Assembly (NCBI RefSeq): GCF_041261445.1
Contig: NZ_JBGCCU010000005.1
Span: forward strand, 310,001 to 374,000
DNA from: Catenulispora sp. EB89
GTDB taxonomy: Bacteria > Actinomycetota > Actinomycetes > Streptomycetales > Catenulisporaceae
Length of the DNA stretch: 64,000 bases
Reading direction: 5' to 3'
The notes under the pieces are model-generated. The model saw nothing but the letters and a program-made list of their open reading frames with translations. It was not told the DNA's origin and searched no databases. How positions within the stretch are numbered: the first letter of the stretch is position 1; every line of letters begins with the position of its first letter. Shown in pieces: positions 39,649 through 59,071 of the stretch. Made by a program: the position numbers and the translations under genes.

Positions 39649-40932
39649 ATGCGGGGACGCGGACACGGCCGGCGGGCCACGCTCGTCACGGCCACGGTCC
39701 TGACGGCGGCCCTCCTCGGCGGCGCCGCACACGCCGACCCGGGTACCCCCGTGATCCCCGGCCAGGGCACCATCGACCGGGCCAAGGCCGACGTCCGCGA
39801 CCGCCAGACCGCCGCCGACCGCATCCAGGCGGCCCTGGACGCCGCGAACGGCCACCTGCACGCCCTGGAGGCGAGCGCCGGGCTCGCGGCCGAGGCGTAT
39901 GACACGGCCGTGGCACAGGCCGCGACGGCGGCGCAGGCGGCCGACGAGGCGCGGACCCGTGCGGCGGCCGCCCTGGACGCGCAGCACCAGGCCGAGGCGC
40001 GGCTCGGGGCGTTCGCGGCCGAGATGTACCGGCAGGGTCCGGACATGGCGATGGCCGTGGCCTTCCTGCACGTCGGCTCCCTGCACGACTACGCCGTCCG
40101 CCGCCAGGTCCAGGCGAACCACGACGCGGCCGAGGCGCTGGCCGTCTCCGGTGCGCGGCAGGCGACGAAGGACGCGGCGGCGGCACGTCAGAAGGCTGAC
40201 CGGAGCGCGGCGGACCAGCGCCGGGCCGAGGCGCGCGCGCAGAGCGCGCTGGGCGCGGCGCGGGCGGCGGCGGCCGACGCGCAGAGCCAGGTCGCCGGGA
40301 TCCAGGCGCAGCAGAACACGCTGGTGCAGCAGTTGGCGGCGGCGCAGGGCATCGAGGTCGGACTGGAGCGGCAGCGGGAGGCCGGGCTGGCGGAGCTCGC
40401 GGCGCAGCAGGCGGCGGCCCGGCAGGCGGCCGCGGCCGCCGCCGCGGCGTCGGCGGCCCGGGCCGCGGGAGCGGGGCCCGGCGGCGGCTCGGCGCACGCG
40501 TCCTCGGGCGGCGGCGCGACGTGGACACCGCCGTCCGTCTCGGCCGGACCCGTTCCGTACGCGGAAGGCGCCGTCCGCCTGATGCTGAACTACATCTACG
40601 CGCAGCTCGGCAAGCCCTACGTCTGGGGCGGCGCGGGCCCGGATGTCTTCGACTGCTCCGGTCTGGCGATGCGCGGCCTGGAAGCCGGCGGATGGTCCTT
40701 CCCGCACCCCGCGCAGTGGCAGTACCTGGCGATGCGCTCGCTCACGTACGACCAGCTCCGCCCCGGCGACCTGGTCTTCTGGGCGGAGGACGGCGCCAAC
40801 CCGCACACCATCTACCACGAGGCGGTCTACATCGGGAACGACCGCATCATCCAGGCGCCGCACCCCGGGGGTGTGGTCGAGCAGCAGTCGCTGTGGATCA
40901 ACGGGACGCCGAGCTTCTACGGCCGGCCGTAG
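39649..40932 (+). CDS. Secreted NlpC/P60 peptidoglycan hydrolase (RipA-like)
   Basis: A 427-residue protein. Signal peptide about 1-29 (ATLVTATVLTAALLGGAAHA). Residues 40-280 are an Ala/Gln-rich coiled coil, then a Gly/Ser linker. The C-terminal NlpC/P60 domain is LGKPYVWGGAGPDVFDCSGLAM with catalytic Cys near 340, HEAVYIGNDRIIQAPHPG with the His and the third polar residue. It cleaves D-Glu-diaminopimelate cross-bridges for cell separation. A good AAGGAG site precedes the ATG. The Tn7-like transposon begins 15 bp after its stop codon. Confidence 0.92.
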   Translation: MRGRGHGRRATLVTATVLTAALLGGAAHADPGTPVIPGQGTIDRAKADVRDRQTAADRIQAALDAANGHLHALEASAGLAAEAYDTAVAQAATAAQAADEARTRAAAALDAQHQAEARLGAFAAEMYRQGPDMAMAVAFLHVGSLHDYAVRRQVQANHDAAEALAVSGARQATKDAAAARQKADRSAADQRRAEARAQSALGAARAAAADAQSQVAGIQAQQNTLVQQLAAAQGIEVGLERQREAGLAELAAQQAAARQAAAAAAAASAARAAGAGPGGGSAHASSGGGATWTPPSVSAGPVPYAEGAVRLMLNYIYAQLGKPYVWGGAGPDVFDCSGLAMRGLEAGGWSFPHPAQWQYLAMRSLTYDQLRPGDLVFWAEDGANPHTIYHEAVYIGNDRIIQAPHPGGVVEQQSLWINGTPSFYGRP

Positions 40933-40942
40933 TCGGCGCACG

Positions 40943-40947
40943 CTTAC
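40943..40947. repeat. Target-site duplication CTTAC, left copy
   Basis: CTTAC directly before the transposon's TGT terminus. The same five bases follow the right terminus at 59067-59071. Five-base duplications are characteristic of Tn7-type insertion. Confidence 0.9.
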
Positions 40948-41010
40948 TGTAGGTTCTCAGTCTTGACGTCCTATTCTCGTTGCCGATGTCCCATCCGTGT
41001 CCCATGGGCC
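40948..41010. repeat. Left (tnsA-proximal) transposon end with TnsB-like repeats
   Basis: Terminal TGTAGGTTC at 40948-40956, GATGTCCCATCC at 40985-40996 and GTGTCCCATGG at 40997-41007. The shared TGTCCCAT core in tandem looks like adjacent TnsB-binding sites. Confidence 0.75.
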
Positions 41011-41063
41011 AGGGATTCGAGAATCGCCGTTGCGGCGCCGGCGATGACGGCACACTTGTACGC

Positions 41064-41708
41064 GTGCACCTGACGCATAACGAACTTGCCGTACTGGCCG
41101 GAGTGGGGCCGCTCGTCGGCGTGGCAATCGGCGCCTTCTGGAACAGCAAGACCCAGAAGACGGTCTCCAAGGCGACCGCCGAAAACCAGGCTGCCGCAGC
41201 CAAGGCGGCGATCGAGAGCCAGCAATCGATCGCTGAGCGCGGCTGGCAGGCTCAGCAGCGCCAAGCTGCCGATCACCGGGTGTGGACGGAGCGCAAGTCG
41301 GTATATGTGAAGGCTCTCGAACACATCGCTCGTGGCGCGTTGTTCCGGGACACAGTCACAGCCGGGGGACAGGACCCGGATGCGAACTACGATCCCACGA
41401 CCGATGAGTGGGTCTTGCGGCAGGTTGAACTGGACGCGTGGGCCTCGCAAGAGGTCTTCGTCCTTGCTGATGCCAGCAACCGAGCTCACTTTGCCTGGGC
41501 AGGGGAGTTCCTGAACTGGAAGACGTGGCGGGCAGAGCGCGCTGCTGAGTCCCGAGGCGAGGTGCCCCCGAGCGGCGAGGACTTCGGAACGGTTAACCGC
41601 GAGCTGGCAGACCGGGTCGAAAAGGCCAAGGAGGCGGCTGACCTGTTCGATCAGAGGCTGCGAGAAGCGATCCGTGCGGAGCTTCAGGGAGGCTCTGCCC
41701 AGCAATAA
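41064..41708 (+). CDS. Membrane-anchored coiled-coil protein of unknown function
   Basis: Not recognised. About 214 residues from a GTG start: a short N-terminus, one membrane segment (LAVLAGVGPLVGVAIGAFW), then an Ala/Gln/Glu-rich helix (KATAENQAAAAKAAIESQQSIAERGWQAQQRQAADHRVW) likely to form a coiled coil, and a soluble helical end. Earlier starts (TTG 40980, ATG 40986, ATG 41004) fall inside the transposon end repeats and were not preferred. It is the first cargo gene and faces the convergent CBASS operon. A defence role is possible but only by location. Confidence 0.6.
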   Translation: MHLTHNELAVLAGVGPLVGVAIGAFWNSKTQKTVSKATAENQAAAAKAAIESQQSIAERGWQAQQRQAADHRVWTERKSVYVKALEHIARGALFRDTVTAGGQDPDANYDPTTDEWVLRQVELDAWASQEVFVLADASNRAHFAWAGEFLNWKTWRAERAAESRGEVPPSGEDFGTVNRELADRVEKAKEAADLFDQRLREAIRAELQGGSAQQ

Positions 41709-41918
41709 AGTTCCGGAGCTGCCATCCGAGGCTTTCGCGACCAAATTTTCCGATCTACAGCGGTCGTCGGCCGGTTGGGCTGTTGTCGCGTCTCGCTGGG
41801 GTAGACCAAGGCGGGAAGGTCAAACTGGCAATGGGCGGCCAGCCCGCATGGATCATGCTGGCCGCAGAGCCGTCTTCGGTCAGGTCCGCAGGCTGGCTGG
41901 TCATCATCCCTGGCATTC

Positions 41919-43202
41919 TTACAGAATCAGTGGCCCCCCGCCACGACCGGAGGCGGTGGAGGCAACTGGGATGTAGCGTGCGACGGGTGCGGCATCGTCC
42001 CATTCGTACAAGGTGATCTCCAGGGTGTTCAGCGCACGGCCGAGCAGCACTGCGATGGGGAACGGCGTGCGCAGGAAGAGGTGGACGTGTCGTGTAGCGG
42101 CCGCTGCGGCATGTGCACGGATCTTCGCCGCCAAGTTCGCGACCAAGATGCTGCCAGCCTCAGCAGGGATCTGATGACGGCGCCGCGGATACAGCCGTAC
42201 CGCCGTGTGGAACGCACCGGGATGGGTGGCCAGGTGAGCGGCGAAGGTGTCGCCGAGCGGCTCGACGGGGACCAGGTCGACGTACACGGCGATCGGCGCG
42301 CCCGTCGGCGCGGCCAGGTCGGGTTCGCTGCGGTCAAGCAGTGTCGTCGGGGGTGCCGGGACGGGGCCGGGCTCGCCCCAGATGCCGCCGGTGTGGTCTT
42401 CGACGGTGACCTGCCAAGGAGAGGTATCCGGCACGGCGGCGCCGAGCGCGAAGGCGACGCTGAGGTGTGCGCCCCCGCGGATGTGCAGTCGCTGCGCGCC
42501 GGCGAGGGCGATGAGCCGCGGCAGGTCGGTGAGGAACGTGGCGATCTGCGGCCAGATCGAGGGGTCGGGAATCCGCTGGCCGGGCTGCGGCGGGCGGGTG
42601 CGTACGGCCAGCGGCAACTCGGAGGGGGTGCCGCGCGGGTCCAGGCGGGTCTGCAGATCCAGGTCGAGCGTGGTTCGGCCGGAAGGTCGCAACGCCTGCA
42701 TCCGCTGGGAGGCGACTTCTCGGGCAAGCAGCGCGATTTCGCCAGCGGTGGTCAGGGGGTATTGCTTGAATCGCTGTAGCGTGTCTTTGGGTTGAGACAG
42801 CAGCCTGTCGGGCGCGGTGTAGTCCAGCCCTGGCGAAGCGGCCGAGGCCGTGGTGCTGGCGACAATGCTGCCGATGGCGAACGTGAACGCCGGGTCGGGT
42901 TCAAGGTTCAGTAGTGCGGGCAGCTCGGTCTCGCGCACCACCGTGGAGTGCTGGATGTCGGGGGTGACGAGCAGGACCGCGCCGGACAGACCGGAGGCCA
43001 GGGCCTCGCGCAGGCGGCGGGTGGTGTCCCCTGGTGGCAGGTCGGTGATGTCGTGCCAGACCGGGACTCCGGTCGCGCGCAGCGCCCAGGCCAGTGCTGC
43101 GGCGAGCTCGCTGCCGTCGGATGTGCGGTAACTGATGAACACTGGCGCGAGCGCTCGGACCCCCGCAGGCAAGGGGCCGGGGATGGTGGGCGGGGTCTTC
43201 AT
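41919..43202 (-). CDS. CBASS effector, TIR-SAVED fusion
   Basis: A 427-residue protein. The TIR domain is at about 19-150 (APVFISYRTSDGSELAAALAWALRA... then GAVLLVTPDIQHSTVVRETELPALL, with the likely catalytic Glu at 91 or 93). The SAVED domain is at about 200-420 (LIALAGAQRLHIRGGAHLSVAFALG; WQVTVEDHTGG; HVHLFLRTPFPIAVLLGRALNTL). In characterised TIR-SAVED proteins a cyclic trinucleotide binds SAVED, the protein assembles into filaments and the TIR part destroys NAD+, stopping growth of infected cells. It is last of the five-gene operon and overlaps the JAMM gene by 4 bp. Confidence 0.9.
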   Translation of the reverse strand: MKTPPTIPGPLPAGVRALAPVFISYRTSDGSELAAALAWALRATGVPVWHDITDLPPGDTTRRLREALASGLSGAVLLVTPDIQHSTVVRETELPALLNLEPDPAFTFAIGSIVASTTASAASPGLDYTAPDRLLSQPKDTLQRFKQYPLTTAGEIALLAREVASQRMQALRPSGRTTLDLDLQTRLDPRGTPSELPLAVRTRPPQPGQRIPDPSIWPQIATFLTDLPRLIALAGAQRLHIRGGAHLSVAFALGAAVPDTSPWQVTVEDHTGGIWGEPGPVPAPPTTLLDRSEPDLAAPTGAPIAVYVDLVPVEPLGDTFAAHLATHPGAFHTAVRLYPRRRHQIPAEAGSILVANLAAKIRAHAAAAATRHVHLFLRTPFPIAVLLGRALNTLEITLYEWDDAAPVARYIPVASTASGRGGGPLIL

Positions 43203-43747
43203 CCGGTGGCGTCCTCCTTGGGAAGGCGGGCGTGCAGTGCGGCCAGGCGCACGCTGCGGGTGGTGATCAGCCACGCGGTCAGGCGGGGATGGTTCCATCC
43301 CGTCGCCGCGTCGGGGGTGACGATGACCGTCAGGAACACCTCGAAGCCCAGTTCCGCATCGGTCAGCAGAGCCCGGTAGCTGGTCAGGTCTGTGGCGCTG
43401 GGCCGGGAGGGTCCTCCGGGATGGGAGTGCCAGTCGCCGATCCAGATGCTGGCGTCGGTGCGATAGGCCAAGTCGGCCATGGCCTGCGCGTACCGGACGT
43501 CGCGACGGAAGAAATCGGCTCGGCGCACGGCCTGCGGGCCGGGGCCCGGGGCGTGCACAACATCCAGGACCGGCTGCGGGTGGGCGCGGTGGTGGCCGAG
43601 CAGGATCCCGCCGGTCTCTCGGCCGTCCGCCGAGGACGCCGCGCACCGGGTGATCGCCGTAAAGGCGGTGTCGGTGACCGTGACGGCAGGCGTCGTCCGG
43701 CGGCCCGCCGTGGTCGGCGACCCCGGGAAAAGCTTGCGGCGGATCAT
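43199..43747 (-). CDS. cap3: CBASS Cap3-like JAMM/MPN isopeptidase
   Basis: A 182-residue protein with the full JAMM motif: Glu44 in RETGGILLG, then H107-S-H109 with S117 and D120 (DWHSHPGGPSRPSATD). Cap3 proteins remove the conjugated CD-NTase, opposing Cap2. ATG 43747 was chosen over an ORF start at 43918 because the fold starts there and it lies 7 bp after the E1 gene's stop. Confidence 0.9.
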   Translation of the reverse strand: MIRRKLFPGSPTTAGRRTTPAVTVTDTAFTAITRCAASSADGRETGGILLGHHRAHPQPVLDVVHAPGPGPQAVRRADFFRRDVRYAQAMADLAYRTDASIWIGDWHSHPGGPSRPSATDLTSYRALLTDAELGFEVFLTVIVTPDAATGWNHPRLTAWLITTRSVRLAALHARLPKEDATG

Positions 43748-43754
43748 GTGTTGC

Positions 43755-45041
43755 TCACCGTGGTCCCGTGTCGGGGTCGCAGGTCGGGCAGCCTGGGACC
43801 GGCGGGCCGACCTGTAACCAGCGCTGGTCGCCGGTGCGCCGCAGGTCTGCGGGCGGCGGCAAGTCGGTGCGGGGACGCAGGGCCAGCAGCAGGTGGTCGC
43901 CGGGCAGGATCTGGTCATGGTGCCCGGCCCGCTCCAGGAGGGTGGCGACGGCGCTCTTGGCCGCGAGGGTCCCGACCAGGTGCAGGTCGCCGGCCACAGC
44001 GGTCATCGGCCGGTCGTCGCTGCCGAGGCCGTATGGGGCGTCCAGGGCCGGCTCCGGATCGAAGCCTCCGCTGCCGGCCAGGTGCTCGCGTTGGCAGGTC
44101 AGGCAGCCCCGGCTCGGCCAGGGCTGCAGCCGGAGCACTTCGCCGATCTCTCCGTCCTCCAGGACGCACGCGAGGACCGCGGGGATCCTGGCATGGCGGG
44201 CCAGGTGGCTGACGACTCGACGCGGGGTGACCCCGTCGGCGGCGCACACCACCAGCGCGCATTCCTTGAGCATCGGGCGGATACGGTCGGCGTCGACGAC
44301 GGCGTCGAGCGCGAGCGGTTCGACCGCCGTCTCCGGCCACGTGCGGCGCAGGTGGTCTGCGAGCCCTGCGACCTTGGTCCGGCCAAGGTCGCGGGCGGTG
44401 AGGGGATGGCGGATCAGGTTGTGCGACAGCAACCGGTCAGGGTCGACCAGGGCCAGCGTGCCGATGCCGTAGCCAGCCAGCACTTCGGCAGCGGCGGCGC
44501 CGATGCTCCCGACCCCGATCACGGCCACCCTCATCGCGCGCAGTACGTTCACAGGCCAACCGGGCTCCAACTGTGCCCAGCCGAGGTCAGGTCGCCCCGA
44601 CACCTCCAGGTCTGCGGGCTGTGCCTCCTGCTGGCCGACCCACCACGCGCTGTAGCCCGGAGTCTCACCAGGGGTGTAGATCAGCGTGAATCGGGCCCGG
44701 TTTGCAGGCGGGTTGATCCAGCCGTCGGTGACCAGACGACGGAAGCCGTCGGTGCTCAGGACGGCGGAGCGCATGCGGCAGTCGAGCCACGCGGTCTGGA
44801 GCGCGGGGTCGCCCCGATGCCAGATGCCGGACCTTGGCTCTATGTCGGCGACGTTGAGCGGATGCCCGGCGGGCAGATTCAAGGCGGTGGGAAACATCAG
44901 GGTGTCGCGCTCGCCTACTCCGACGATGCCCGCCAGCCGGTCGGCTGAGGACACGGCCATGTTCAGGTGGCCCCAGCCAGCGGAGATCCCGACAATGCGG
45001 TCAGCTGCGGACTGTGACAGCAGAACGAGCCATTCGGTCAC
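43755..45041 (-). CDS. CBASS E1-like (ThiF) activating enzyme, without fused E2
   Basis: A 428-residue protein. The ThiF/E1 adenylation domain starts near 168: RVAVIGVGSIGAAAAEVL (GxGxxG 176-181), LVDPDRLLSHNLIRH (Asp200, Asp202, Asn208, Arg211), VVCAADG. Two CxxC pairs (GCLTCQREH near 313 and CPTC near the end) form the expected zinc site. The N-terminal 165 residues are not an E2 and match nothing I recognise. In usual type II CBASS the E2 and E1 are one Cap2 protein; here the E2 is the preceding gene. GTG start overlaps the E2 stop (GTGA). Confidence 0.87.
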   Translation of the reverse strand: MTEWLVLLSQSAADRIVGISAGWGHLNMAVSSADRLAGIVGVGERDTLMFPTALNLPAGHPLNVADIEPRSGIWHRGDPALQTAWLDCRMRSAVLSTDGFRRLVTDGWINPPANRARFTLIYTPGETPGYSAWWVGQQEAQPADLEVSGRPDLGWAQLEPGWPVNVLRAMRVAVIGVGSIGAAAAEVLAGYGIGTLALVDPDRLLSHNLIRHPLTARDLGRTKVAGLADHLRRTWPETAVEPLALDAVVDADRIRPMLKECALVVCAADGVTPRRVVSHLARHARIPAVLACVLEDGEIGEVLRLQPWPSRGCLTCQREHLAGSGGFDPEPALDAPYGLGSDDRPMTAVAGDLHLVGTLAAKSAVATLLERAGHHDQILPGDHLLLALRPRTDLPPPADLRRTGDQRWLQVGPPVPGCPTCDPDTGPR

Positions 45042-45619
45042 GTCGCCGCCCACCGGTCCCCGTCGGGCTCCGCATCACGGATCAGCGTGTCGAGCGAGGG
45101 GTCGGCGCCGATCCCGGTGTTCGTCATGGCCTCGATCAGACCGCGGGACAGCAGGAGGTATTCGATGAACCAGCCGACGGCCTTGGCCACCAGTTCGGCG
45201 GCTGGCTCCCGGCCGCTCCAGACGGCGGGGCTGGCCAGTAGGCACAGGCTGCCGTCGCCGTTCACGTGCCAGGCGTGGTTCAGGCGGTGTGCGAGCTGCG
45301 GCTCCGGGTCCAGCGCCCAGATGCTGGGCGCTGCCACCGGGAACCCGTGCCCGTAGGCGACCTGGACCTTCAGCGTGCGTCCGCTGCTCAACGCGTCCAG
45401 GCCCGCCGGGGCGGGTCGGTCGAACGGCCACCAGGGCGCAGACCCCTGCCATAACCCCGCCCCCTGCGGCTGCCAGTGCAGGTCCGGGGCCAGCGTGGCC
45501 ATTGCGACCGTCTCGCGGAGCAACAGCGCGGGCTCTTCCTGCCACCAAGTCCTGGCCCGTTCGCCGAGCATCGCCGCAGTGATCGCGCCGGGCACGGCCT
45601 CAGCCCTGCGGGATGTCAC
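45038..45619 (-). CDS. CBASS free-standing E2-like conjugating enzyme
   Basis: A 193-residue protein with the bacterial E2 signature: an HxNxDGxLCLL-type loop, here WHVNGDGSLCLLASPAVWSG, the active Cys at about 126, preceded by a beta-strand region (TLKVQVAYGHGFPVAAPSIW) and followed by a long helix. It should take the CD-NTase C-terminus from the E1 and attach it to a target. The GTG start overlaps the CD-NTase gene by 20 bp; a GTG at 45595 is an alternative. Confidence 0.82.
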   Translation of the reverse strand: MTSRRAEAVPGAITAAMLGERARTWWQEEPALLLRETVAMATLAPDLHWQPQGAGLWQGSAPWWPFDRPAPAGLDALSSGRTLKVQVAYGHGFPVAAPSIWALDPEPQLAHRLNHAWHVNGDGSLCLLASPAVWSGREPAAELVAKAVGWFIEYLLLSRGLIEAMTNTGIGADPSLDTLIRDAEPDGDRWAAT

Positions 45620-46580
45620 GGATGCGCCGGCGCGGCGCGATCAGGGTGGCCGCGACAGCGGACGCGGGCTTCGCGGCGGACTGCTGGCCGGACGGCTGCG
45701 GGAACTCTGCGCCGAACAGCTGTGTCCACAGCGCGACCGCCTTGTCGGCGTCCTGCGCGGTTTCGGCGTCCAGCGCCTCGTTTGCCAACTCCGCCGCCTC
45801 CAGCAGCTTGCTGCGGGTCGCGTCGCGGTCCAGATCGGGCTGGATCTCCCCACAATGCCCTGCAGGGTCGAACACCCCGTACATCACTTCGGTCGCCGCC
45901 GCGGTGAAGAACTGGGCGAGCGCTGCCGCGCGGGTGTTCTGCACCGGCAGACAGCGCAGCGCAAGCACCTCCATAGCGAGGCTTTTCATGTCCAGCCCGG
46001 CGGAGTTCGTCCGCCACCACTTCAGGACACGTACCAACGGAACGAAGTCCGACCACGTCTGCTGACGCCCGGCCACTTGCGAGATCAGGTACTCGGGATC
46101 GGCGGTGATCCAGCGCGAGTTATAGCGCTCCGGCAGCAGCAGGCTGCCGTCGGACTGACGCAGTGCTACGGCAACCTCGACCGCGAAAGGGTCTTCCGCC
46201 TCGGGGTCGTCCAGAAAGCACTTGACGACATGGTTGCGCTTGGAGGTCAGGCGCACCTCGTTCGCCACCGTCCCACTGGTCGCCCCGAGAGTGCGCATCA
46301 CCTGTCCGGCAAGGTAGGTCAGGGCGTCGTCCGCCGAGCCGCCAGGACTGCCCCACTCGGGGTGCTCGGCGGGTACGAACTCGACGAGCAGGTCCACGTC
46401 ATGGATCGGGTCCAACTGCGTGGCCCGGGCCAGGGACCCGGACGGGATCACGCTCACCACGTCACGCAGCGGCTGGAGCGCGTCGCGGAACAGGTTGCGG
46501 CGCCGACGCGCCTCCGCCACCGATGACGGGTCGGCGTTCACGATCGTCTGGAACTGCCCAAAGGCTGTACTGACCTGCAT
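45600..46580 (-). CDS. CBASS CD-NTase (cGAS/DncV-like nucleotidyltransferase)
   Basis: A 326-residue protein. The nucleotidyltransferase core is PSGSLARATQLDPIHDVDLLVEF: GS at 48-49, catalytic Asp61 and Asp63. The position of the third carboxylate reads FAVEVAVAL, i.e. Glu135 where most family members have Asp. PERYNSRWITADPEYLISQV matches the following conserved segment. The C-terminus ends in Gly (RDIPQG), as needed for conjugation by the E1/E2 pair. It makes a cyclic oligonucleotide on phage infection. ATG 46580 has GGGGA 7 bases upstream; it is the first gene of the operon. Confidence 0.9.
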   Translation of the reverse strand: MQVSTAFGQFQTIVNADPSSVAEARRRRNLFRDALQPLRDVVSVIPSGSLARATQLDPIHDVDLLVEFVPAEHPEWGSPGGSADDALTYLAGQVMRTLGATSGTVANEVRLTSKRNHVVKCFLDDPEAEDPFAVEVAVALRQSDGSLLLPERYNSRWITADPEYLISQVAGRQQTWSDFVPLVRVLKWWRTNSAGLDMKSLAMEVLALRCLPVQNTRAAALAQFFTAAATEVMYGVFDPAGHCGEIQPDLDRDATRSKLLEAAELANEALDAETAQDADKAVALWTQLFGAEFPQPSGQQSAAKPASAVAATLIAPRRRIRDIPQG

Positions 46581-46640
46581 TTCTGTTCCCCGTCTCCGGA
46601 GTGTCCGTAGGGCCCTCCGGGGCAGGAGTGAACCCCACTG

Positions 46641-46726
46641 TTGCACCTGTGCAAGTGCGCGTCTAGTGTGAAATCCAACGCTAGCCGGTTGCTTCGACAC
46701 TCGCAACCGAACGTCACAAGTGCAAG
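46641..46726. promoter_or_regulatory. Divergent CBASS/capHP promoter region with two inverted repeats
   Basis: TTGCACCTGTGCAA at 46641-46654 has perfect 6-bp arms. CGGTTGC (46686-46692) and GCAACCG (46703-46709) are a second pair with a 10-base spacer. A GTGCAAG half-site recurs at 46720-46726 over the capH ribosome site. These are good candidates for the HTH regulator's sites. Confidence 0.6.
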
Positions 46727-46733
46727 GAGTTTC

Positions 46734-47102
46734 ATGGTAGACCGCGCACCGGGCGAGCGGGGATCGTTCGACGCGCCCTCCTTCTTCGCCGCCCTCGACG
46801 CCGAGCGCGAGGCACGGGGGAGGAACTGGAAACAGGTCGCCGAGCAGGCTGGCGTCAGCCAGTCGACCCTGACGCGCCTGGCCCAGGGCAAACGCCCGGA
46901 CGTCGACAGCCTTGCCGCGCTCGTCGACTGGGCGGGGCTCAAAGCCGACGACTACGTCATACGGGTTCACCAGAATGAGCCGGCCAACCCGCTGGCGATG
47001 ATCTCCACGTACCTCAAGAGCGACCGCAACCTCACCCCAGAGGCTGCGGCCGCCTTGGAGAAGGTCGTCAAGGCCACCTACGAGGCGCTGCGGCAGAACT
47101 AG
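46734..47102 (+). CDS. CapH-like HTH regulator of CBASS
   Basis: A 122-residue XRE-type protein. The HTH is at about 30-70 (NWKQVAEQAGVSQSTLTRLAQGKRPDVDSLAALVDWAG). ATG 46734 follows CAAGGAG. It is divergent from CBASS and 2 bp before a metallopeptidase gene. In known CBASS loci a CapH repressor is cleaved by a neighbouring CapP peptidase on DNA damage, releasing transcription; this pair has that layout, so the function is inferred by family and position. Confidence 0.78.
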   Translation: MVDRAPGERGSFDAPSFFAALDAEREARGRNWKQVAEQAGVSQSTLTRLAQGKRPDVDSLAALVDWAGLKADDYVIRVHQNEPANPLAMISTYLKSDRNLTPEAAAALEKVVKATYEALRQN

Positions 47103-47104
47103 GA

Positions 47105-47683
47105 ATGGCCCTCCAACGTGGCTTTAAGGCGCAGGCTGAGCGAAGCGCGGCAGACGTACGAGCCGAACTCGGACTCACGCTCGACGACCGACTCCACCCC
47201 CTGGACCTCGCCCAGCACCTGGGTATCCCAGTCCTGAGCCTGTCCATGCTGCCCGACGTCACGCCGGGAATCGACGGCATCGCCGACGCCGTGGCCTACC
47301 TCCATCGCGCCGAACAGGGCGCGCTGTCCGCCGTGACCGTCTTCTGCGGCACGGCTCGCGCGATCGTCAACAATGACGCGCACTCGCCCGCCCGACAGGC
47401 GAGCAACCTCTCGCACGAGCTGGCCCACGGACTATTACTCCACCCGCCCACCCCTGCCCTCGACCTCCGCGGCTGTCGCCTGTGGAACCAGGACATCGAG
47501 GACGAAGCTGACTGGCTGGGCGCCACCTTGCTCATCCCCGGACCCGCAGCACGCGCCGCAGCACGCCGACGGCTGAGCCACGAGCAAATCGCCGACAAGT
47601 TCGGCTGCAGCATCGAGATGGCCCGCTGGCGCATGAACATGACCGGCGCTCTGCGCATGCTTACTCCGCGAACCCGCGCGTAG
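47105..47683 (+). CDS. CapP-like ImmA/IrrE metallopeptidase
   Basis: A 192-residue protein with the zinc site S-H104-E105-L-A-H108 (SNLSHELAHGLLLH) and a downstream acidic ligand helix (IEDEADWLGATLLIPG). The N-terminus (RSAADVRAELGLTLDDRLHPLDLAQHLGIPV) and C-terminal HTH-like end (SHEQIADKFGCSIEMARWRMNMTGA) match the ImmA/IrrE family. Expected to cleave the HTH protein encoded just before it. No tail domain that would sense DNA is obvious. Confidence 0.82.
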   Translation: MALQRGFKAQAERSAADVRAELGLTLDDRLHPLDLAQHLGIPVLSLSMLPDVTPGIDGIADAVAYLHRAEQGALSAVTVFCGTARAIVNNDAHSPARQASNLSHELAHGLLLHPPTPALDLRGCRLWNQDIEDEADWLGATLLIPGPAARAAARRRLSHEQIADKFGCSIEMARWRMNMTGALRMLTPRTRA

Positions 47684-47960
47684 CTCACGCCGACCGCTGG
47701 CGAGTTCCACATAGATTGCGGGGCAACGCCGAGGACGCTGAGGACCAGGACAACACCATTCAGCAGCGGCTTGCGCCCATCAAGACCATCCCATTGCTGG
47801 TTTTTGATTGAGCGCTTGGGTTAGGCGAGGTCGCTGACCTCTGGTTCGTGCGGCCATGTCACTCGATGGAGTGGCCCGGAACTGTGGTGTCTTGCCATCC
47901 GGCCTGTTTCTCGCGACGTTCATGTCATACCGGCATGTGGAGTCAGGGACGGGAGCTCCG
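47684..47960. other. tnsA upstream region with inverted repeat
   Basis: 277 bp. GAGGTC-GCT-GACCTC at 47827-47841 is a perfect 6-bp inverted repeat, possibly an operator for the tns operon. No other gene seen. Confidence 0.5.
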
Positions 47961-48691
47961 ATGGCTGACAAGGGCACCCCCTCGTCGGCCCAAGTGAGTC
48001 TCCGGAAGGCCGACGGGAAGACTGTTGCGGATCGTCCATGGAACGAGGTGCCGGCCGAGTCGTTCCGCGGCGCCGAGCCATGGCGGACGTTCCGCTGGCA
48101 CAAGGACCAGAAGCACTACTCCGGGACGTTCTGGTCGTCCACTGTCCAGGGCCACGTCATCTACGAGTCGCGGCTGGAGCTGACGCGGCTGCTCTATGCC
48201 GACTTCGATCCCTCGGTGTCACACATCCTGGCGCAACCGATGCTGATGACCGCCGAGGTCGATGGAATCAGGCGCCGGCACATCCCCGACTTCCTTCTGC
48301 TTGCCGATGATGGTCCGTTGGTGGTCGACGTCAAGCCCGCACACCGTCTCGTCCGGCCGAAGGTGGCTTTCACGCTGACTGGGCGCGAGCGACCGTCGAG
48401 GAGCGCGGCTGGCGCTTCCAGGTGTGGTCCGAGCCACCAGCGGCGGAACTGGAGAACATCAGGTTCCTGGCCGGCTACCGCCGTGACTGGCTGTTCGCTC
48501 CCGACATCGTTGGCGAGCTGAAGGCCCGGGATCTGCACGGCGCTACATTGGCCGCGGCGTTCGCCAGCCTTTCCACTCGCTCGGCGCCGCTTGTCCGGGC
48601 CGCCGTGCTGCACCTGCTGTGGTCTGGACACTTGGCGACCGATCTGCGCGTTCCCCTGTCCGGCTCTCATGTCCTGCGGCAGGCGGCATGA
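47961..48691 (+). pseudogene. tnsA: tnsA, frameshifted
   Basis: TnsA makes the 5' strand cuts in Tn7-type transposition. The N-terminal nuclease domain is intact: Glu in GHVIYESRLELTRLL (69 or 73), Asp110 in RRHIPDFLLL, and VVDVKPAHR with Lys125. At about 48375-48382 the frame breaks: reading continues as TLTGRERPSRS and stops at 48521, while the expected C-terminal domain (WARATVEERGWRFQVW...) is in the -1 frame and runs to 48691. One base is missing, or -1 slippage occurs; no obvious slippery heptamer is seen. The C-terminal frame overlaps the tnsB start by ATGA. The start was set by GGGAG before ATG 47961. Confidence 0.85.
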
Positions 48692-50781
48692 GTCCGGCGG
48701 CGACACGGCTGGGCGTCGGTTCTCGCTTCGTCGTGGACGGGGACGCGGTCGAGGTCGTCGAGATGGCGGCGACCGCAGCGGGTAACGAGGTCGTTGTCAA
48801 GGACGGGTTCGGTCGGCTCGCCCGCTTCACGGCCAAGGAGTTGTTGTTCGGGGATCGGGCGAGGATTGTTGCGGACAGTCCGGGGCCGTCCTCGGACGAG
48901 GACCAGGACCTGGCCGGGGTAGTGCTGGCGCAACTGACCTCTGCGGAGCGGGCACAGGTGCTGGAGCGGGCCGAACACGTTCGTGAGGTCCTTACTGGCT
49001 ATCGAGCTGGGGATCCTGAGCTGGCTGGCCCCGGTGAACCGCGCATGGCCTTCGACCCTGCCGCCTCACTCATGACCCGTTACGCCGCGAAAGCTGAGGA
49101 ACTCGGGGTCAGCGCCCGCACCATCAAGCGATGGGTCGCTGGATTCCGCAGGGATGGCGAGGCCGGGCTGGCCAGTCCGCGCCGCAGCGAGCCGCTGGGG
49201 CGCATCGCCCCTGAGTGGGCTGAGATGGCGCTGGAGGTGATGGTTGAGCACACCGGTCTGTCGCGTCCCACCCGCAAGATGGTGATCGAGCGGACCGCAG
49301 CGCGGCTGGCGGCTCGGTTCGGTGAGGGTGCGGTTGCGAATCCGAGTCGATCAGCGGCCTACCGGGTGTTGGAGCAGTTGGAGCGTCGGCATCCGACCTT
49401 CCGGCTGAGTACACGGCGAAACCTGGACGTCGCTGATCGGCCTCAGCAGGCCTACGGCAAACTGCGACCGACCAGGCCGGGGGAGTACGTGCTGATGGAC
49501 ACCACGCGCCTGGACGTGTTCGCACTGGATCCGGTTACGCTGCGGTGGGTGCAGGTCGAGCTGACGGTCGCGATGGACTGGTACACGCGCTGCATCACCG
49601 GCATCCGGCTGACCCCGGTGTCGACGAAGGCCGTGGATGCTGCGGCGGTGCTCTACCAGGCTTACCGGCCGCGCCCGGTGCTTCCGGACTGGCCGGCGCG
49701 GGCAGTCTGGCCCGAGCACGGCGTCCCTAGGGCGGTGTTGGTGGATCCTGAGGCTGTCGACGGGCACCTCACCGGGAGGTCGAGCCCGGAACTTGTTCCA
49801 GAGACGATCGTCGTTGACCACGGACGGGTCTATCTGTCGGAACACCTGACCAGCGTGTGCGCCCGGATGGGCATTTCGATCCAGCCGGTCAGGCTTCGCA
49901 CTGGCCGCGACAAAGGGCCGGTGGAGAGGTTCTTCAAGACTCTGCGGGAAGACCTGTTGCAGGGGCTGCCGGGTTACAAGGGGCCTGATCTGTTCTCGCG
50001 GGGTGTGGATCCCGAAGGTGAGGCGTTCTACTTCCTGGACGAGTTGGACGCCCGGGTCCGAGAATGGGTCGCGGCGGTCTACCACCTGCGGCCTCATGCG
50101 GGTCTGATCGATCCCGGAGTCCCCGGTCTGGCGCTGTCTCCAGCGCAGATGTTCGCACATGGTGTCGCCCGCGCTGGTTACATCGAGGTCCCACGCGATC
50201 CTGACCTCGGTCTGGAGTTTCTGGAGACCCGGTGGCGCACCATCCAACCCTATGGTGTGGAGATCGATAGACGCCGGTATAGAGGCGAAGGCCTGCCGCG
50301 TGACGGCGCCAAGAGCCCCTATCGCGGCGGCCGATGGCCGATCCAAGTCGACCCCGACGACATCACCCGCGTCTACTTCCGCGACCTAGAGCGGCAATGG
50401 CACGTGCTGGTCTGGGAACACGCGCCGAGTCTGATCATGCCGCTGAGCGAGGAAGCACTGGCCTTCGCTCGGAAACTGGCAGCGGCAAAGTACGCGTTCC
50501 CCGACGACCGGCTGGCAGCCGCCGACCTATTCGAGCGCTGGCGCCTGGGGCTGGGCGAAACCACGGCCGAACGCCGCATGGCGCTGCGCTTGTCACGTGA
50601 GCAGACGGCATTCGATCTGCCGGACCCCAGTGCCCCGAGAACACCTCCCTCGGTGCGTATGGCTCTGGAGGCGTCCCAGCAGCCGGGCAGCCCGCATGAC
50701 GAGGAGGTCAAGGAGGGCGACGACGACTCGACGGACTTTGAGGATGACGACTTCTACGCCGAAGCCTTGGAGGACGTGTGA
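48688..50781 (+). CDS. tnsB: Transposase TnsB
   Basis: A 697-residue DDE transposase (rve family). HTH regions near 130-210 (AKAEELGVSARTIKRWVAGFRRDGEAGL) would bind the ends. Catalytic residues: Asp271 (VLMDTTRLDVF), Asp377 (TIVVDHGRVYLSEHL) and Glu413 (DKGPVERFFKTL), with exactly 35 residues between the last two. A Mu-type C-terminal domain follows. The end is acidic (EEVKEGDDDSTDFEDDDF), where TnsB contacts TnsC. It overlaps both neighbours by ATGA/GTGA. Confidence 0.94.
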   Translation: MSPAATRLGVGSRFVVDGDAVEVVEMAATAAGNEVVVKDGFGRLARFTAKELLFGDRARIVADSPGPSSDEDQDLAGVVLAQLTSAERAQVLERAEHVREVLTGYRAGDPELAGPGEPRMAFDPAASLMTRYAAKAEELGVSARTIKRWVAGFRRDGEAGLASPRRSEPLGRIAPEWAEMALEVMVEHTGLSRPTRKMVIERTAARLAARFGEGAVANPSRSAAYRVLEQLERRHPTFRLSTRRNLDVADRPQQAYGKLRPTRPGEYVLMDTTRLDVFALDPVTLRWVQVELTVAMDWYTRCITGIRLTPVSTKAVDAAAVLYQAYRPRPVLPDWPARAVWPEHGVPRAVLVDPEAVDGHLTGRSSPELVPETIVVDHGRVYLSEHLTSVCARMGISIQPVRLRTGRDKGPVERFFKTLREDLLQGLPGYKGPDLFSRGVDPEGEAFYFLDELDARVREWVAAVYHLRPHAGLIDPGVPGLALSPAQMFAHGVARAGYIEVPRDPDLGLEFLETRWRTIQPYGVEIDRRRYRGEGLPRDGAKSPYRGGRWPIQVDPDDITRVYFRDLERQWHVLVWEHAPSLIMPLSEEALAFARKLAAAKYAFPDDRLAAADLFERWRLGLGETTAERRMALRLSREQTAFDLPDPSAPRTPPSVRMALEASQQPGSPHDEEVKEGDDDSTDFEDDDFYAEALEDV

Positions 50782-51911
50782 GAGCCGTTGTAGACGGTGC
50801 CGGGACATCCCGACTCGATCGCCTCACCATCGCCCGCAAAGAGGGTTGGAAGGCGCTGGTCGAGGCGCCGCCGAAGGTGCAGCCGGAACAGCTGTCGCGC
50901 AGCGAGTTGGCTGGCCTAGCTCCCGAAGCGAAAGCAATCAGGGATCGAGACCTTCGCTTCTGGCATGCCAACCTCGGCCCGATCAAGACACCCCAGCTTG
51001 AGGAACTGCATCACGAAATGGCGGACATCTTCGAGTCCGAGGACCCCAAGGCGGGCGACTTGGTGAAGGGCGCCATGGCGGTCGAAGGGTTCCCCGGCCT
51101 GGGCAAGACCACGGCTGTGCTGGCGTTCGCGAAGGAAATGCATCGTCGCACGATCGCGGAGGAGGGGACGCTTACTGAGGAGGGCCACGAGCGGTGGCCG
51201 GTGGCCCGGGTTGGTCTGACCGGCAACACCGGTATGAAGGACTTCAACAAGGCGCTGCTGGACTTCTACGGGCACCCCGGAACGAACGGCACCACCTCCG
51301 AGATGGGGAAACGGGCGCTGGACTGCGTCTTAATGTGTGACACGCGGCTGCTCATCATCGATGACCTGCACTTCCTGCAATGGCGCAAGACCGGCGGCAT
51401 GGAGGTGTCCAACCACTTCAAGTACATCGCCAACGAGTTCCCGATCGTCCTGCTGTTCATCGGCGTGGGACTGAGAGCCAGAGGGCTATTCAGTGAGGGC
51501 GAGTCCGAGGCAGACACCGTGATCGCCCAGACAGGGCGTCGGTCGACACCGTTGGTGCTCAAACCGTTCACCATCGCAGACGAGGCCGGACGTCGGGCCT
51601 GGCGCAACATGCTGCTGGCGCTGGAGCAACGGCTTGTCCTGGTCGACAAGCATCCCGGAATGCTGGCCGATGACTTGTCGGACTACTTGTTTGCCCGCTC
51701 CACCGGCCATATCGGCTCCCTCATGACCCTGATCAACCGAGGATGTCAGCGGGCGCTGCGTACTGGACTTGAACGCCTTGATGCCGACCTGCTCGACAAG
51801 GTGAAGATTGACGCCGCTGCCGAGGCTGGCCGCGCTGAGTTGGAGCTCGCCCTGCAATCCGGACGGCTGCGCAGCAAGCCCCGGCAAGGCCGCGCGATCG
51901 CGGTTGGCTGA
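50778..51911 (+). CDS. tnsC: Transposition ATPase TnsC
   Basis: A 377-residue AAA+ ATPase. Walker A is EGFPGLGKTTAVLAFAKEM (about 103-121) and Walker B LLIIDDLHFLQW (near 192-203). The flanking parts match TnsC/TniB of Tn7-like elements. It bridges target selection by TniQ and the TnsAB transposase. GTG start overlaps the tnsB stop. Confidence 0.93.
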   Translation: MRAVVDGAGTSRLDRLTIARKEGWKALVEAPPKVQPEQLSRSELAGLAPEAKAIRDRDLRFWHANLGPIKTPQLEELHHEMADIFESEDPKAGDLVKGAMAVEGFPGLGKTTAVLAFAKEMHRRTIAEEGTLTEEGHERWPVARVGLTGNTGMKDFNKALLDFYGHPGTNGTTSEMGKRALDCVLMCDTRLLIIDDLHFLQWRKTGGMEVSNHFKYIANEFPIVLLFIGVGLRARGLFSEGESEADTVIAQTGRRSTPLVLKPFTIADEAGRRAWRNMLLALEQRLVLVDKHPGMLADDLSDYLFARSTGHIGSLMTLINRGCQRALRTGLERLDADLLDKVKIDAAAEAGRAELELALQSGRLRSKPRQGRAIAVG

Positions 51912-54564
51912 GCAGGTGCGGACGCTGCCGCTCCGGCTCGAACCTGTTGCCGGTGAGTCGTTCGGAAGCTGGCTCCAGGCATACGGACGGTTGCTGAACG
52001 TTCGGGTCAGCACCGTGGTGAAGGCCCTTGGGCTACGAGAAGTGATCAGAGGCGAGTTCCCGGACTTCAGCATCGCCTTGAGCCCGACGGAGACCGAACG
52101 GCTGGAGGAGACGTGCGGAGTCAGCGCCGATCAGGCGCACTCGATGACCCTGCGGCTCTACGACGGACAACTGCTGGTGATGAACCATGCCGCCCGCGGA
52201 GTCCGGCCTCGCAGACTGTGGGGACGATGCCGAGGATCACGCTATTGCCCGCAGTGCCTGGACGAAGCCGACGGACGCTGGCCGTTGCGCTGGCGGCTGA
52301 CGTGGTCGTTCGCCTGCACCACGCATGGGGTCCTGCTGGAGGACCGATGCCCGGGCTGCTTACGAACCCCCTACGTTCGCACCGGCGCCAAGCATCGAGC
52401 AGGTACGTCCTGCTCGCTCTGCCGCCTTGATCTGCGCGACGCCGCGGCTCCCGAGGCCGCCAGCGTGACGTTGCTGATGGCACAAAGGCGCATCAATTCC
52501 CTTCTGGACAGCGTCGAGTGCGGAGACGGGCACAGCGTCGGACAACTGGCGGGCTTCACGTTCGTCGACCTGGCGTCGGTGGCGAAATGGCTGGTGAGAA
52601 CATCGGTTCCCGCCGACTTCGAGTCGTTCGGGCTGCACGTAGTCAACGCCTTCCAGGCCGAGCGGGACCGACCGCATGAAGTCGGTGCCGAACGGCTTGG
52701 AAGTATGCCGCCTGACAACGGGCCGCTGGTCGGTGCCATCACCACGCGTGTCCTCGACCTGATCTCGCCCGACGGCGGCGAATCGGCTGAAGAACAGATC
52801 CGTGTCCTGCTGCGCCGTCGCGACGGCAGTCGTCAGCGCATGCCCCCAGCTGGGCTCAGCGGCCATTGGGCCGAGCTCTCCCCACCGGTCCAGCGCAGGT
52901 TCCTGCGCGCCCTCGACCCCGACCTCGCCCACATCGATCGCATCCGCTTCCGCAGCACGCTGCCGACGGCCGCGCTCCCGCAACCGGGGCTCGCCGAAGC
53001 CCGGACCCGATGGCTTCCGCAACTGCTCTGGCCAGACTGGTCGATACGCCTGATGCCTGCCGCCGGCTGCGACTCCGAACGGTTCCGCGCCGCGGCCATC
53101 GTGTTCCTACTGACAAGCGGCAACCCTGAGCGGAACATCCTCAACGTCGCTGAAGTTCTGCACCCCCACTTGCAATGGCAACTCACCCGCTACCTGAGTA
53201 CGGAGGTCACCAGCGGCGGCGACACGATACTCCGCGCCATCGGGAATATCTCCGAATATCTCGACCAGCACGACGGCCGAATTGACTATCACCGCCGACG
53301 CGCCGTCGTCGGCACTGACCTGCTCAGTGAGGACCAGTGGCGCAGTTTGTGCTTCGACACCGGTATCCACCCCGGTGACACCGCCAAGACTCGAGAGCAG
53401 GGGAGCGGACGCCACTTGCAGGCTCGCCGCTACCTGCATCAGCTGCTGACCGGCGCCGATCTGAACGACCCCGGCAATGCCCTGAGCTGGCGGGGATCGC
53501 CCGACCGAGCCCAGTACTTGGCCTTTGTTGATTGGCTGGCGCCGCCGCTGCGCCGCACCTTGGCAGACCACGCCATCAGGATTCTGCGCGAGCTGGGAAT
53601 CGACGAGCCGTTGACGTGGTCGCCGCCGACGGATTGCTGTCCGGCGCTGCGTAGGCCCGGCCGCGAACCTGATGACATCGACCGCCAACAGGTATTGAAG
53701 CTCGTCGTGACTGACAAGACGCCTGTCGGCGCGGTCGCCGAGCGCATGGCCACTACTGCCGACCACATCCGGCTGGTCTTGGAGCTGGATACCGACGGCC
53801 CCTGGACCCCAGCTCCACGTGGGCCTCATGTCGCCTGGCGTCGTCGGCAACAGGCCCGCGAGCTGTTGACCACCGACTTTTTCGAACGAGAACACGTCGG
53901 GCTCCGAAAGCGGCTCCGCCAGCTTGAGCAGGAGACGGGTTTCCCCCGCGGCCTGATCTCTGAGATCGCTGCCGAGATCGGCGTTGAACTTCTGCCGCCG
54001 TGGAAGACCGCCTTCACGATCGATCCACACTGGCTGCGCGACCAGTACGTCGACCAACGACGCAGCCACGAGGACATTGCGGCCGAACTGGGCACGTCCG
54101 CAGAGACGGTCCGTCGTAGCTTGATTCGTCACAAGATCCCACGACGTCCGCCCGGCATCGCAAGCCATACCCAGATGATCGCGGTCGTGCCCGGCAGCGT
54201 ACCTGACGACATCCGCCGTGCTGTCGAGGGCGGTCTCGCTGGCTGGCAGCGTCTCCAGCGCTTTCAAGCCGTTATGCGTTACGCGACGATCGACGCTGCG
54301 GCCGAGGACCTCGGCCTATTCCAGAGCGCTCTCGTGACACAGCTCCGGCGCCTGGAAAGAGACGCCGGAGCTCAGCTGTTTCACCGAGCCGCGCGCGGCA
54401 AGGCGATGCGGCCCACCGCGCGCGGACGAGCCCTGCTCTCGGCTCTTGACCTACCAGAGGTTCAAGCACTCACCCCTCCGCTCGACCGGCCAGCACTTGA
54501 AGCGATCCGACTGCATCGCGCAGCGGTGATGGGCGCGCAACCGTCGGCGGGTTCGTCGGGATGA
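51904..54564 (+). CDS. tniQ: Target selector TniQ/TnsD with extra C-terminal HTH domains
   Basis: An 886-residue protein, longer than E. coli TnsD (about 500) and far longer than short TniQ. The N-terminal TniQ zinc part is RYCPQCLDEADGRWPLRW...CTTHGVLLEDRCPGC (about 112-152), plus CSLC near 170. The middle is helical. Two HTH units follow: IDPHWLRDQYVDQRRSHEDIAAELGTSAETVRRSLIRHKI (near 705-746) and a LysR-type winged helix, LQRFQAVMRYATIDAAAEDLGLFQSALVTQLRRLERDAG (near 783-821), with its wing. They could read the attachment site. The TTG start overlaps tnsC by 8 bp; GTG 51916 is an alternative. Confidence 0.9.
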   Translation: MAEQVRTLPLRLEPVAGESFGSWLQAYGRLLNVRVSTVVKALGLREVIRGEFPDFSIALSPTETERLEETCGVSADQAHSMTLRLYDGQLLVMNHAARGVRPRRLWGRCRGSRYCPQCLDEADGRWPLRWRLTWSFACTTHGVLLEDRCPGCLRTPYVRTGAKHRAGTSCSLCRLDLRDAAAPEAASVTLLMAQRRINSLLDSVECGDGHSVGQLAGFTFVDLASVAKWLVRTSVPADFESFGLHVVNAFQAERDRPHEVGAERLGSMPPDNGPLVGAITTRVLDLISPDGGESAEEQIRVLLRRRDGSRQRMPPAGLSGHWAELSPPVQRRFLRALDPDLAHIDRIRFRSTLPTAALPQPGLAEARTRWLPQLLWPDWSIRLMPAAGCDSERFRAAAIVFLLTSGNPERNILNVAEVLHPHLQWQLTRYLSTEVTSGGDTILRAIGNISEYLDQHDGRIDYHRRRAVVGTDLLSEDQWRSLCFDTGIHPGDTAKTREQGSGRHLQARRYLHQLLTGADLNDPGNALSWRGSPDRAQYLAFVDWLAPPLRRTLADHAIRILRELGIDEPLTWSPPTDCCPALRRPGREPDDIDRQQVLKLVVTDKTPVGAVAERMATTADHIRLVLELDTDGPWTPAPRGPHVAWRRRQQARELLTTDFFEREHVGLRKRLRQLEQETGFPRGLISEIAAEIGVELLPPWKTAFTIDPHWLRDQYVDQRRSHEDIAAELGTSAETVRRSLIRHKIPRRPPGIASHTQMIAVVPGSVPDDIRRAVEGGLAGWQRLQRFQAVMRYATIDAAAEDLGLFQSALVTQLRRLERDAGAQLFHRAARGKAMRPTARGRALLSALDLPEVQALTPPLDRPALEAIRLHRAAVMGAQPSAGSSG

Positions 54565-54732
54565 CCAGTGTCTGAAACGGGCCGCATCCGCATAAGCCTG
54601 CGGATCAGGTCTGGTTCAGCCGAACCTACTCAGGCCAGCGAAGATCAAGGACTGGGCCGCCTCACTGTCGATGAGTAGCCGCTGGCCGGGAAACGGAACG
54701 TGCACAGAGGCCCCGCGTCGGCGAGCCATTGA

Positions 54733-58806: not shown

Positions 58807-58896
58807 ACCGGCACCGTACCAATAGGCATGCTATGAAGCAATCTATCGGCTGCAATGCCGAGAGGGTGCTTAAAGAGTTCGACCTGGACAGGTAGA

Positions 58897-59066
58897 CACC
58901 AGCCCCCAAGTGCTGGTGCAGCCTCTGGGGCTGGTGGCACGACTGTTGGCGACGCCCCAGGATGGGACATCCTGGTGAGAAACACGGAGGGGACACGTGC
59001 ATGAGACTCGCCAGTGCAGACGAGGTCAACCGCCTACCGAGGAGACAGCGAAATCGGGAACCTACA
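58897..59066. repeat. Right transposon end with inverted repeats
   Basis: Terminal GAACCTACA at 59058-59066. GGATGGGACATC at 58960-58971 is the exact complement of the left-end 12-mer and is itself inside an 8-bp inverted repeat CCAGGATG/CATCCTGG (58957-58975). CACCAGCCCC (58897-58906) and GGGGCTGGTG (58927-58936) form a further 10-bp stem. A GTGTCCCCTCC motif on the minus strand near 58986-58996 resembles a third TnsB-like site. Confidence 0.72.
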
Positions 59067-59071
59067 CTTAC
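59067..59071. repeat. Target-site duplication CTTAC, right copy
   Basis: CTTAC directly after the transposon terminus, identical to 40943-40947. The remaining 44 bp to the Nudix start codon are host DNA. Confidence 0.9.

Follow-up and report, generated by a model that had tools for sequence, protein, structure and literature searches.

Evidence for the 3' end of NlpC/P60 cell-wall hydrolase genes as a probable attachment site of Tn7-like transposons in actinobacteria

Does a Tn7-like transposon home to the 3' end of NlpC/P60 cell-wall hydrolase genes, and if so, which of its proteins selects the site? The question is raised by a 64,000-nucleotide stretch of DNA from Catenulispora sp. EB89 (hereafter, the window), where a transposon that encodes a TniQ/TnsD-type protein begins just behind such a gene. 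As argued below, the 3' part of the NlpC/P60 gene is very likely the attachment site of this transposon, chosen via the C-terminal region of TniQ/TnsD; binding by TniQ is inferred, as there is no binding or transposition assay.

The window element and its target gene

The window contains a complete Tn7-like element (Table 1). Its left end, TGTAGGTTCTCAG, begins at 40948, its right end, ...GGGAACCTACA, stops at 59066, and a perfect 5-bp duplication, CTTAC, flanks it. The corresponding empty site is present in another member of the genus (genome G004, locus L020), which matches the joined flanks without gaps over 776 bp at 95% identity and contains one CTTAC; NlpC/P60 orthologues with unoccupied 3' ends occur in the genus. 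The two ends of the element show 10-mer inverted matches and have in common an inverted 12-mer and related repeats, for which no TnsB binding data exist. Two criteria for a Tn7-like element are met: TGT...ACA ends with a 5-bp target duplication, and a TnsA endonuclease, a DDE transposase TnsB, an AAA+ ATPase TnsC and TniQ encoded together, although tnsA is frameshifted. The criterion for Tn7 proper, insertion adjacent to glmS, is not met, the target being NlpC/P60.

Exactly 15 bp (40933-40947) lie between the stop codon of the NlpC/P60 gene and the left end of the element. An earlier note on this DNA, made from the sequence alone, had placed the tnsA-side end 15 bp past this stop codon; this held, and the interval it gave, 40900-41010, brackets the junction correctly. 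The one refinement is that tnsA is not adjacent to this end, as approximately 6.9 kb, mostly cargo, intervene.

Table 1. Features of the window element and its target (strand: +, forward; -, reverse;., none)
Feature	Position	Strand	Remarks
NlpC/P60 (C40) cell-wall hydrolase gene, host attachment gene	39649..40932	+	Pfam PF00877 NLPC_P60, E 1.3e-17
Inferred recognition region, codons ANPHTIYHEAVYIGNDRIIQAPHPG	40795..40869	+	ends 78 bp before element
Target-site duplication, left copy CTTAC	40943..40947	.	single copy in G004 empty site
Whole Tn7-like element, 18,119 bp	40948..59066	.	TGT/ACA ends, 5-bp duplication, ungapped empty site in L020
Left-end internal repeat GATGTCCCATCC / GTGTCCCATGG	40985..41008	+	candidate TnsB sites (no binding data); inverted counterpart 58960-58971
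Type II CBASS operon	41919..46970	-	Pfam, PADLOC
CBASS TIR-SAVED effector	41919..43646	-	
CBASS E1	43755..45053	-	
CBASS E2	45038..45619	-	
CBASS cyclase	45600..46970	-	
M78-type (CapP-like) protease	47105..47683	+	Pfam, PADLOC
tnsA	47856..48521	+	NCBIfam NF033179 TnsA_like_Actin; frameshifted near 48,370, C-terminal part out of frame
tnsB, DDE transposase, Mu-transpos_C domain	48619..50781	+	D294, D400, E436
tnsC, AAA+ ATPase	50778..51911	+	TniB/AAA_22; Walker A 104-111
tniQ/tnsD-type target selector	51916..54564	+	TniQ Pfam E 4e-20; HTH_1 1.3e-13
HTH-Mrr nuclease-STAND NTPase protein, 1357 aa	54733..58806	-	Pfam
Target-site duplication, right copy CTTAC	59067..59071	.	

Residues 62-174 of the window TnsA match only positions 1-113 of the 212-position NF033179 model. 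The frame is lost after approximately codon 174 (within 48330-48521), and a frame comparison showed that relatives keep it open there. The frameshift could mean that the window copy is unable to cut and paste, or it could be an assembly error; either is possible, and the copy may be immobile. TniQ has approximately 882 residues from a probable GTG start in an open reading frame that opens at 51808; it contains a CCCH zinc finger (C147/C150/C170/H173, ORF numbering) and a C-terminal HTH at 813-874. The AlphaFold model of TniQ, built from 5 sequences with a mean pLDDT of 54, was too poor for fold searches.

Region 41919-47683 is transposon cargo, namely a complete type II CBASS operon with its TIR-SAVED effector plus a CapP-like M78 protease; CBASS is known among the cargoes of actinobacterial Tn7-like elements (PMC8649781). 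The HTH-Mrr-STAND NTPase protein is likely a single-gene defence system.

Repeated insertions behind NlpC/P60 genes at a fixed spacing

We collected TniQ relatives from actinobacterial genomes, retrieved the flanks and recorded the adjoining gene. Eight junctions lie directly 3' of NlpC/P60 genes: besides that of the window, there are seven insertions in five other genomes (G232, G185, G272, contigs C199 and C10 of G010, and contigs C48 and C58 of G389). They involve several paralogues, and all are found among elements with the closest TniQ C-terminal parts, most of which sit behind NlpC/P60 genes. The two G389 contigs stop in different NlpC 3' ends, each running into the left end that opens the tns contig C24; similarly, C10 of G010 shows a second NlpC gene running into the left end also seen on C199. 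Streptomyces elements use two neighbouring NlpC paralogues: in G232 and G185 the insertion is behind the first, in G272 behind the second. Because there are only 9-14 NlpC/P60 genes per genome, chance placement of eight junctions is negligible. The tnsA-side end points toward the NlpC/P60 gene at 8/8 junctions, which satisfies the same-orientation criterion for TnsD-type homing.

Could all these junctions descend from a single ancestral insertion behind an NlpC gene that was inherited or moved together with flanking DNA? In favor of this explanation, G232 and G185 have the same pcrA-NlpC locus with near-identical NlpC 3' ends. However, the other junctions are at different paralogues with different neighbours and stop distances, two each in G389 and G010, and in other members of the genus the window site carries no element. 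Because of the multiple paralogues and empty sites, a single insertion is refuted for the whole set and can be all but excluded.

Measured from the final base of the APxPG-equivalent codons, the element lies 78 bp away in the window, G232, G185 and both G389 contigs, 77 bp in G272, 79 bp in G010 C199 and 80 bp in G010 C10. The corresponding distances from the stop codon are 15 bp in the window, 6 bp in G232, G185 and G389 C48, 14 bp in G272, 13 bp in G010 C199, 12 bp in G389 C58 and 11 bp in G010 C10. When G185, a near duplicate, is left out, the standard deviation is 0.95 bp for the codon distance and 3.65 bp for the stop distance (F test, p = 0.002; Levene test, p = 0.046; the two tests thus differ in strength). 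Since the codon distance is fixed (77-80 bp) and the stop distance varies (6-15 bp), the ruler begins at the coding sequence, as it does for TnsD at glmS, and the eight junctions satisfy the spacing criterion for TnsD-type homing, a constant distance to coding sequence conserved within a single gene family.

The insertion point is preceded by the conserved NlpC codons HVGxYxG...I[H/D/N/Q]AP. In NlpC/P60 enzymes, the catalytic histidine (HVG) lies in this conserved stretch, as does the third active-site residue (I[H/N/Q/D]AP). Up to the codon end point, 33 of 75 positions are conserved in at least six of the seven distinct target genes, versus 6 of 75 in the next stretch. A GTRCGGCCGG-like motif near the stop codon (four sites, with a 10-bp step in spacing) was another candidate for the recognition sequence; its absence from G272, both G389 sites and G010 C10 led us to reject it.

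In the mechanism that we propose, the long C-terminal region of TniQ/TnsD would bind the DNA coding for the HVGxYxG...I[H/D/N/Q]AP stretch, the TniQ core would then load TnsC and direct TnsAB, and TnsAB would insert the element approximately 78 bp further on, with its tnsA-side end toward the gene. The insertion point would fall 6-15 bp past the stop codon, and the NlpC/P60 gene would stay intact. The fixed spacing is an observation; that TniQ binds the DNA directly and that TnsC acts as the ruler is inferred from it and by analogy with Tn7.

The earlier note had likened the polarity and approximate distance to those of Tn7 at glmS, which held, with the same polarity at all eight junctions. 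Its suggestion that a TnsD-type protein reads conserved coding sequence and inserts just beyond it is supported, the spacing fixed to codons being stronger than the argument it offered. The check it proposed, listing the gene beside each homologous element, was carried out and returned the repeated NlpC/P60 neighbours at the eight junctions.

Insertion site and the C-terminal part of TniQ

Elements whose TnsB is 58-67% identical to that of the window but whose TniQ C-terminal part differs lie behind dnaB or an OmpA-family gene, whereas in the other NlpC-sited elements TnsB is only approximately 44-45% identical to that of the window. The insertion site therefore follows the C-terminal part of TniQ. 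In the dnaB-sited elements (G354, G011, G054, G209, G163, G114 and G010b), HRNGP codons end 75-79 bp before the element; both OmpA-family-sited elements (G066, L070:13773-14645, and its equivalent in G128) are 61 bp past NRR codons.

Phylogenetic trees of different parts of the same element are in conflict. In the TnsB tree, the window groups with the dnaB/OmpA set (support 100/99), and its grouping with the NlpC set is rejected (AU p = 0.0125). In the tree of the TniQ C-terminal part, on the contrary, it groups with the NlpC set (100/99), and its grouping with the main dnaB/OmpA clade is rejected (AU p = 0.004). Bootstrap support in the TnsC tree agrees with TnsB, but the alternative is not excluded (AU p = 0.106). 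The TniQ core resembles the dnaB/OmpA set by identity, and its placement in the tree is not firm (AU p = 0.24). The OmpA users and most dnaB users fall into TniQ C-terminal clades separate from the NlpC users. One dnaB-sited element, G354, branches beside the NlpC set in this part; the link between clade and site, which the data show, is therefore strong but not perfectly tidy.

The conflicting trees make an exchange within or next to tniQ very likely, although the exact breakpoint is unresolved. The window element itself is likely a recombinant that combines TnsB (and, less firmly, TnsC) from one lineage with a TniQ C-terminal part from the NlpC lineage. A bolder reading is that this lineage reads active-site codons of a multi-copy family, which would offer approximately ten docking sites per genome, and that recombination inside tniQ or beside it handed the address to a transposase set from a different lineage; we favor this reading by a narrow margin only.

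Not every related element is found behind an NlpC gene. The G152 element matches the NlpC-sited element of G272 at 99.8% identity over 11 kb, yet its insertion, flanked by a clean duplication, GCGGG, is at a non-NlpC site, while two NlpC genes of G152 are free. The L004 element (Dactylosporangium) has a clean duplication, CCTCC, and is not behind NlpC; it branches outside the NlpC users in the TniQ C-terminal tree, although not firmly (90/84). Thus, such elements can land elsewhere too, as Tn7 does. Homologous elements at unrelated sites were what the earlier note would have taken as refutation; only these two fit that description, so that homing is strong but not exclusive.

These exceptions, and the related elements behind dnaB and OmpA genes, could be taken to support a generic preference for safe places behind highly expressed or terminator-bearing genes, NlpC being one of many. 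This is very unlikely, given eight junctions in so small a gene family. The explanation is further strained by a distance fixed to conserved codons rather than to the stop codon, and the NlpC users are separated from the OmpA users and most dnaB users by clade in the TniQ C-terminal tree.

Another alternative is targeting by a guide RNA or by another cargo protein instead of TniQ, since some Tn7-like elements use crRNAs or TnsF (PMC11406308, PMC10293859). We consider this equally improbable, as the TniQ protein is long and has a C-terminal HTH, and site choice tracks its C-terminal clade. A guide search comparing element and target revealed no common word longer than 12 nt, no repeat or CRISPR array and no Rfam match. 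No Cas domains were detected among the window proteins scanned by Pfam, and the criterion for a CRISPR-associated transposon (Cas genes or a guide RNA) is not met. The annotated proteins included none recognisable as TnsF-like.

Known systems and additional loci

The inferred selection of the site via TniQ has a close parallel in Tn7, where TnsD reads GlmS active-site codons at attTn7 (TnsD site +23 to +58; PMC2918618). Both systems have TnsABC and a TniQ-core protein with a CCCH zinc finger, TGT/ACA ends, a 5-bp duplication, the tnsA-side end toward the gene, and insertion just behind the gene with a constant spacing to active-site codons. Unlike Tn7, the window element targets NlpC/P60, a multi-copy family; its conserved block lies farther away, at least 78 bp upstream of the insertion; its TniQ has approximately 880 residues; and cargo separates the end from tnsA. 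Conserved coding sequence is likewise recognised by Tn6022/TnsF at comM (Walker B codons) and Tn7017 at parE; however, Tn6022 inserts within comM via a separate TnsF, whereas the NlpC target stays intact.

Faure et al. (2023; PMC10293859) proposed that a common TniQ core is combined with C-terminal regions that confer the attachment site. What is added here is natural exchange, inferred from conflicting trees within one element, together with the NlpC, dnaB and OmpA sites. The window element has host phylum and cargo type in common with the Actinobacteria-dominated Tn7-like clade of Benler et al. (2021; PMC8649781), although its membership in that clade is untested. The NlpC site is not named in the text of that paper that we searched, and no member of the clade was reported there to be experimentally characterised.

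Few Tn7-type attachment genes have been described: a review (PMC11406308) names glmS, yhiN, comM, parE, tRNA and plasmid res sites. We found no paper joining "Tn7-like" with "NlpC" in the open-access literature searched, which excludes subscription papers and supplements; the earlier note likewise knew of no Tn7-like family described at NlpC/P60. Within this literature, the NlpC/P60 family is likely an undescribed Tn7-type docking address. In the same open-access scope, no paper joined "Tn7-like", "TniQ", "attachment site" and "dnaB", and dnaB is likely a second, apparently undescribed, attachment gene. NlpC/P60, and probably dnaB and an OmpA-family gene, can be added to the short list of attachment genes; in the phylum concerned, Tn7-like elements reportedly lack experimental characterisation. 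These elements amount to a natural test of which TniQ region determines the address and of how distance is measured, and they are candidate insertion tools for actinomycetes. They also indicate that whole anti-phage islands can move from one safe site to another in these bacteria.

Three relatives, L005, G703 and G450, were left without a site assignment. The closest TniQ found (48%) is that of G703, whose contig stops at the right end of the element, so that its insertion site cannot be placed; of the NlpC 3' ends readable in that genome, none runs into an element end. In L005 (Kibdelosporangium), an NlpC gene lies 19.4 kb upstream, on the same strand; this relative was left out of the NlpC count, as it has lost tnsA and half of tnsB and has a recombinase-like gene there.

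Several additional observations concern individual loci. The G152/G272 pair (L046-L048, L082-L083, L087), both from Streptomyces, suggests that a second targeting route may exist. At locus L097 (G439, Kibdelosporangium), a degraded tns set is preceded, 19.4 kb upstream, by an NlpC gene whose 3' end is apparently altered beside a recombinase-like gene; this locus is possibly a decayed insertion. The seven dnaB-sited elements (L084:14388-15866 and equivalents) are 8-12 bp past the dnaB stop codon. Tandem pairs of dnaB-lineage tns sets are found behind dnaB in G054 (L060-L062) and on contig C387 of G010 (L065-L066), and they may reflect repeated use of the dnaB site.
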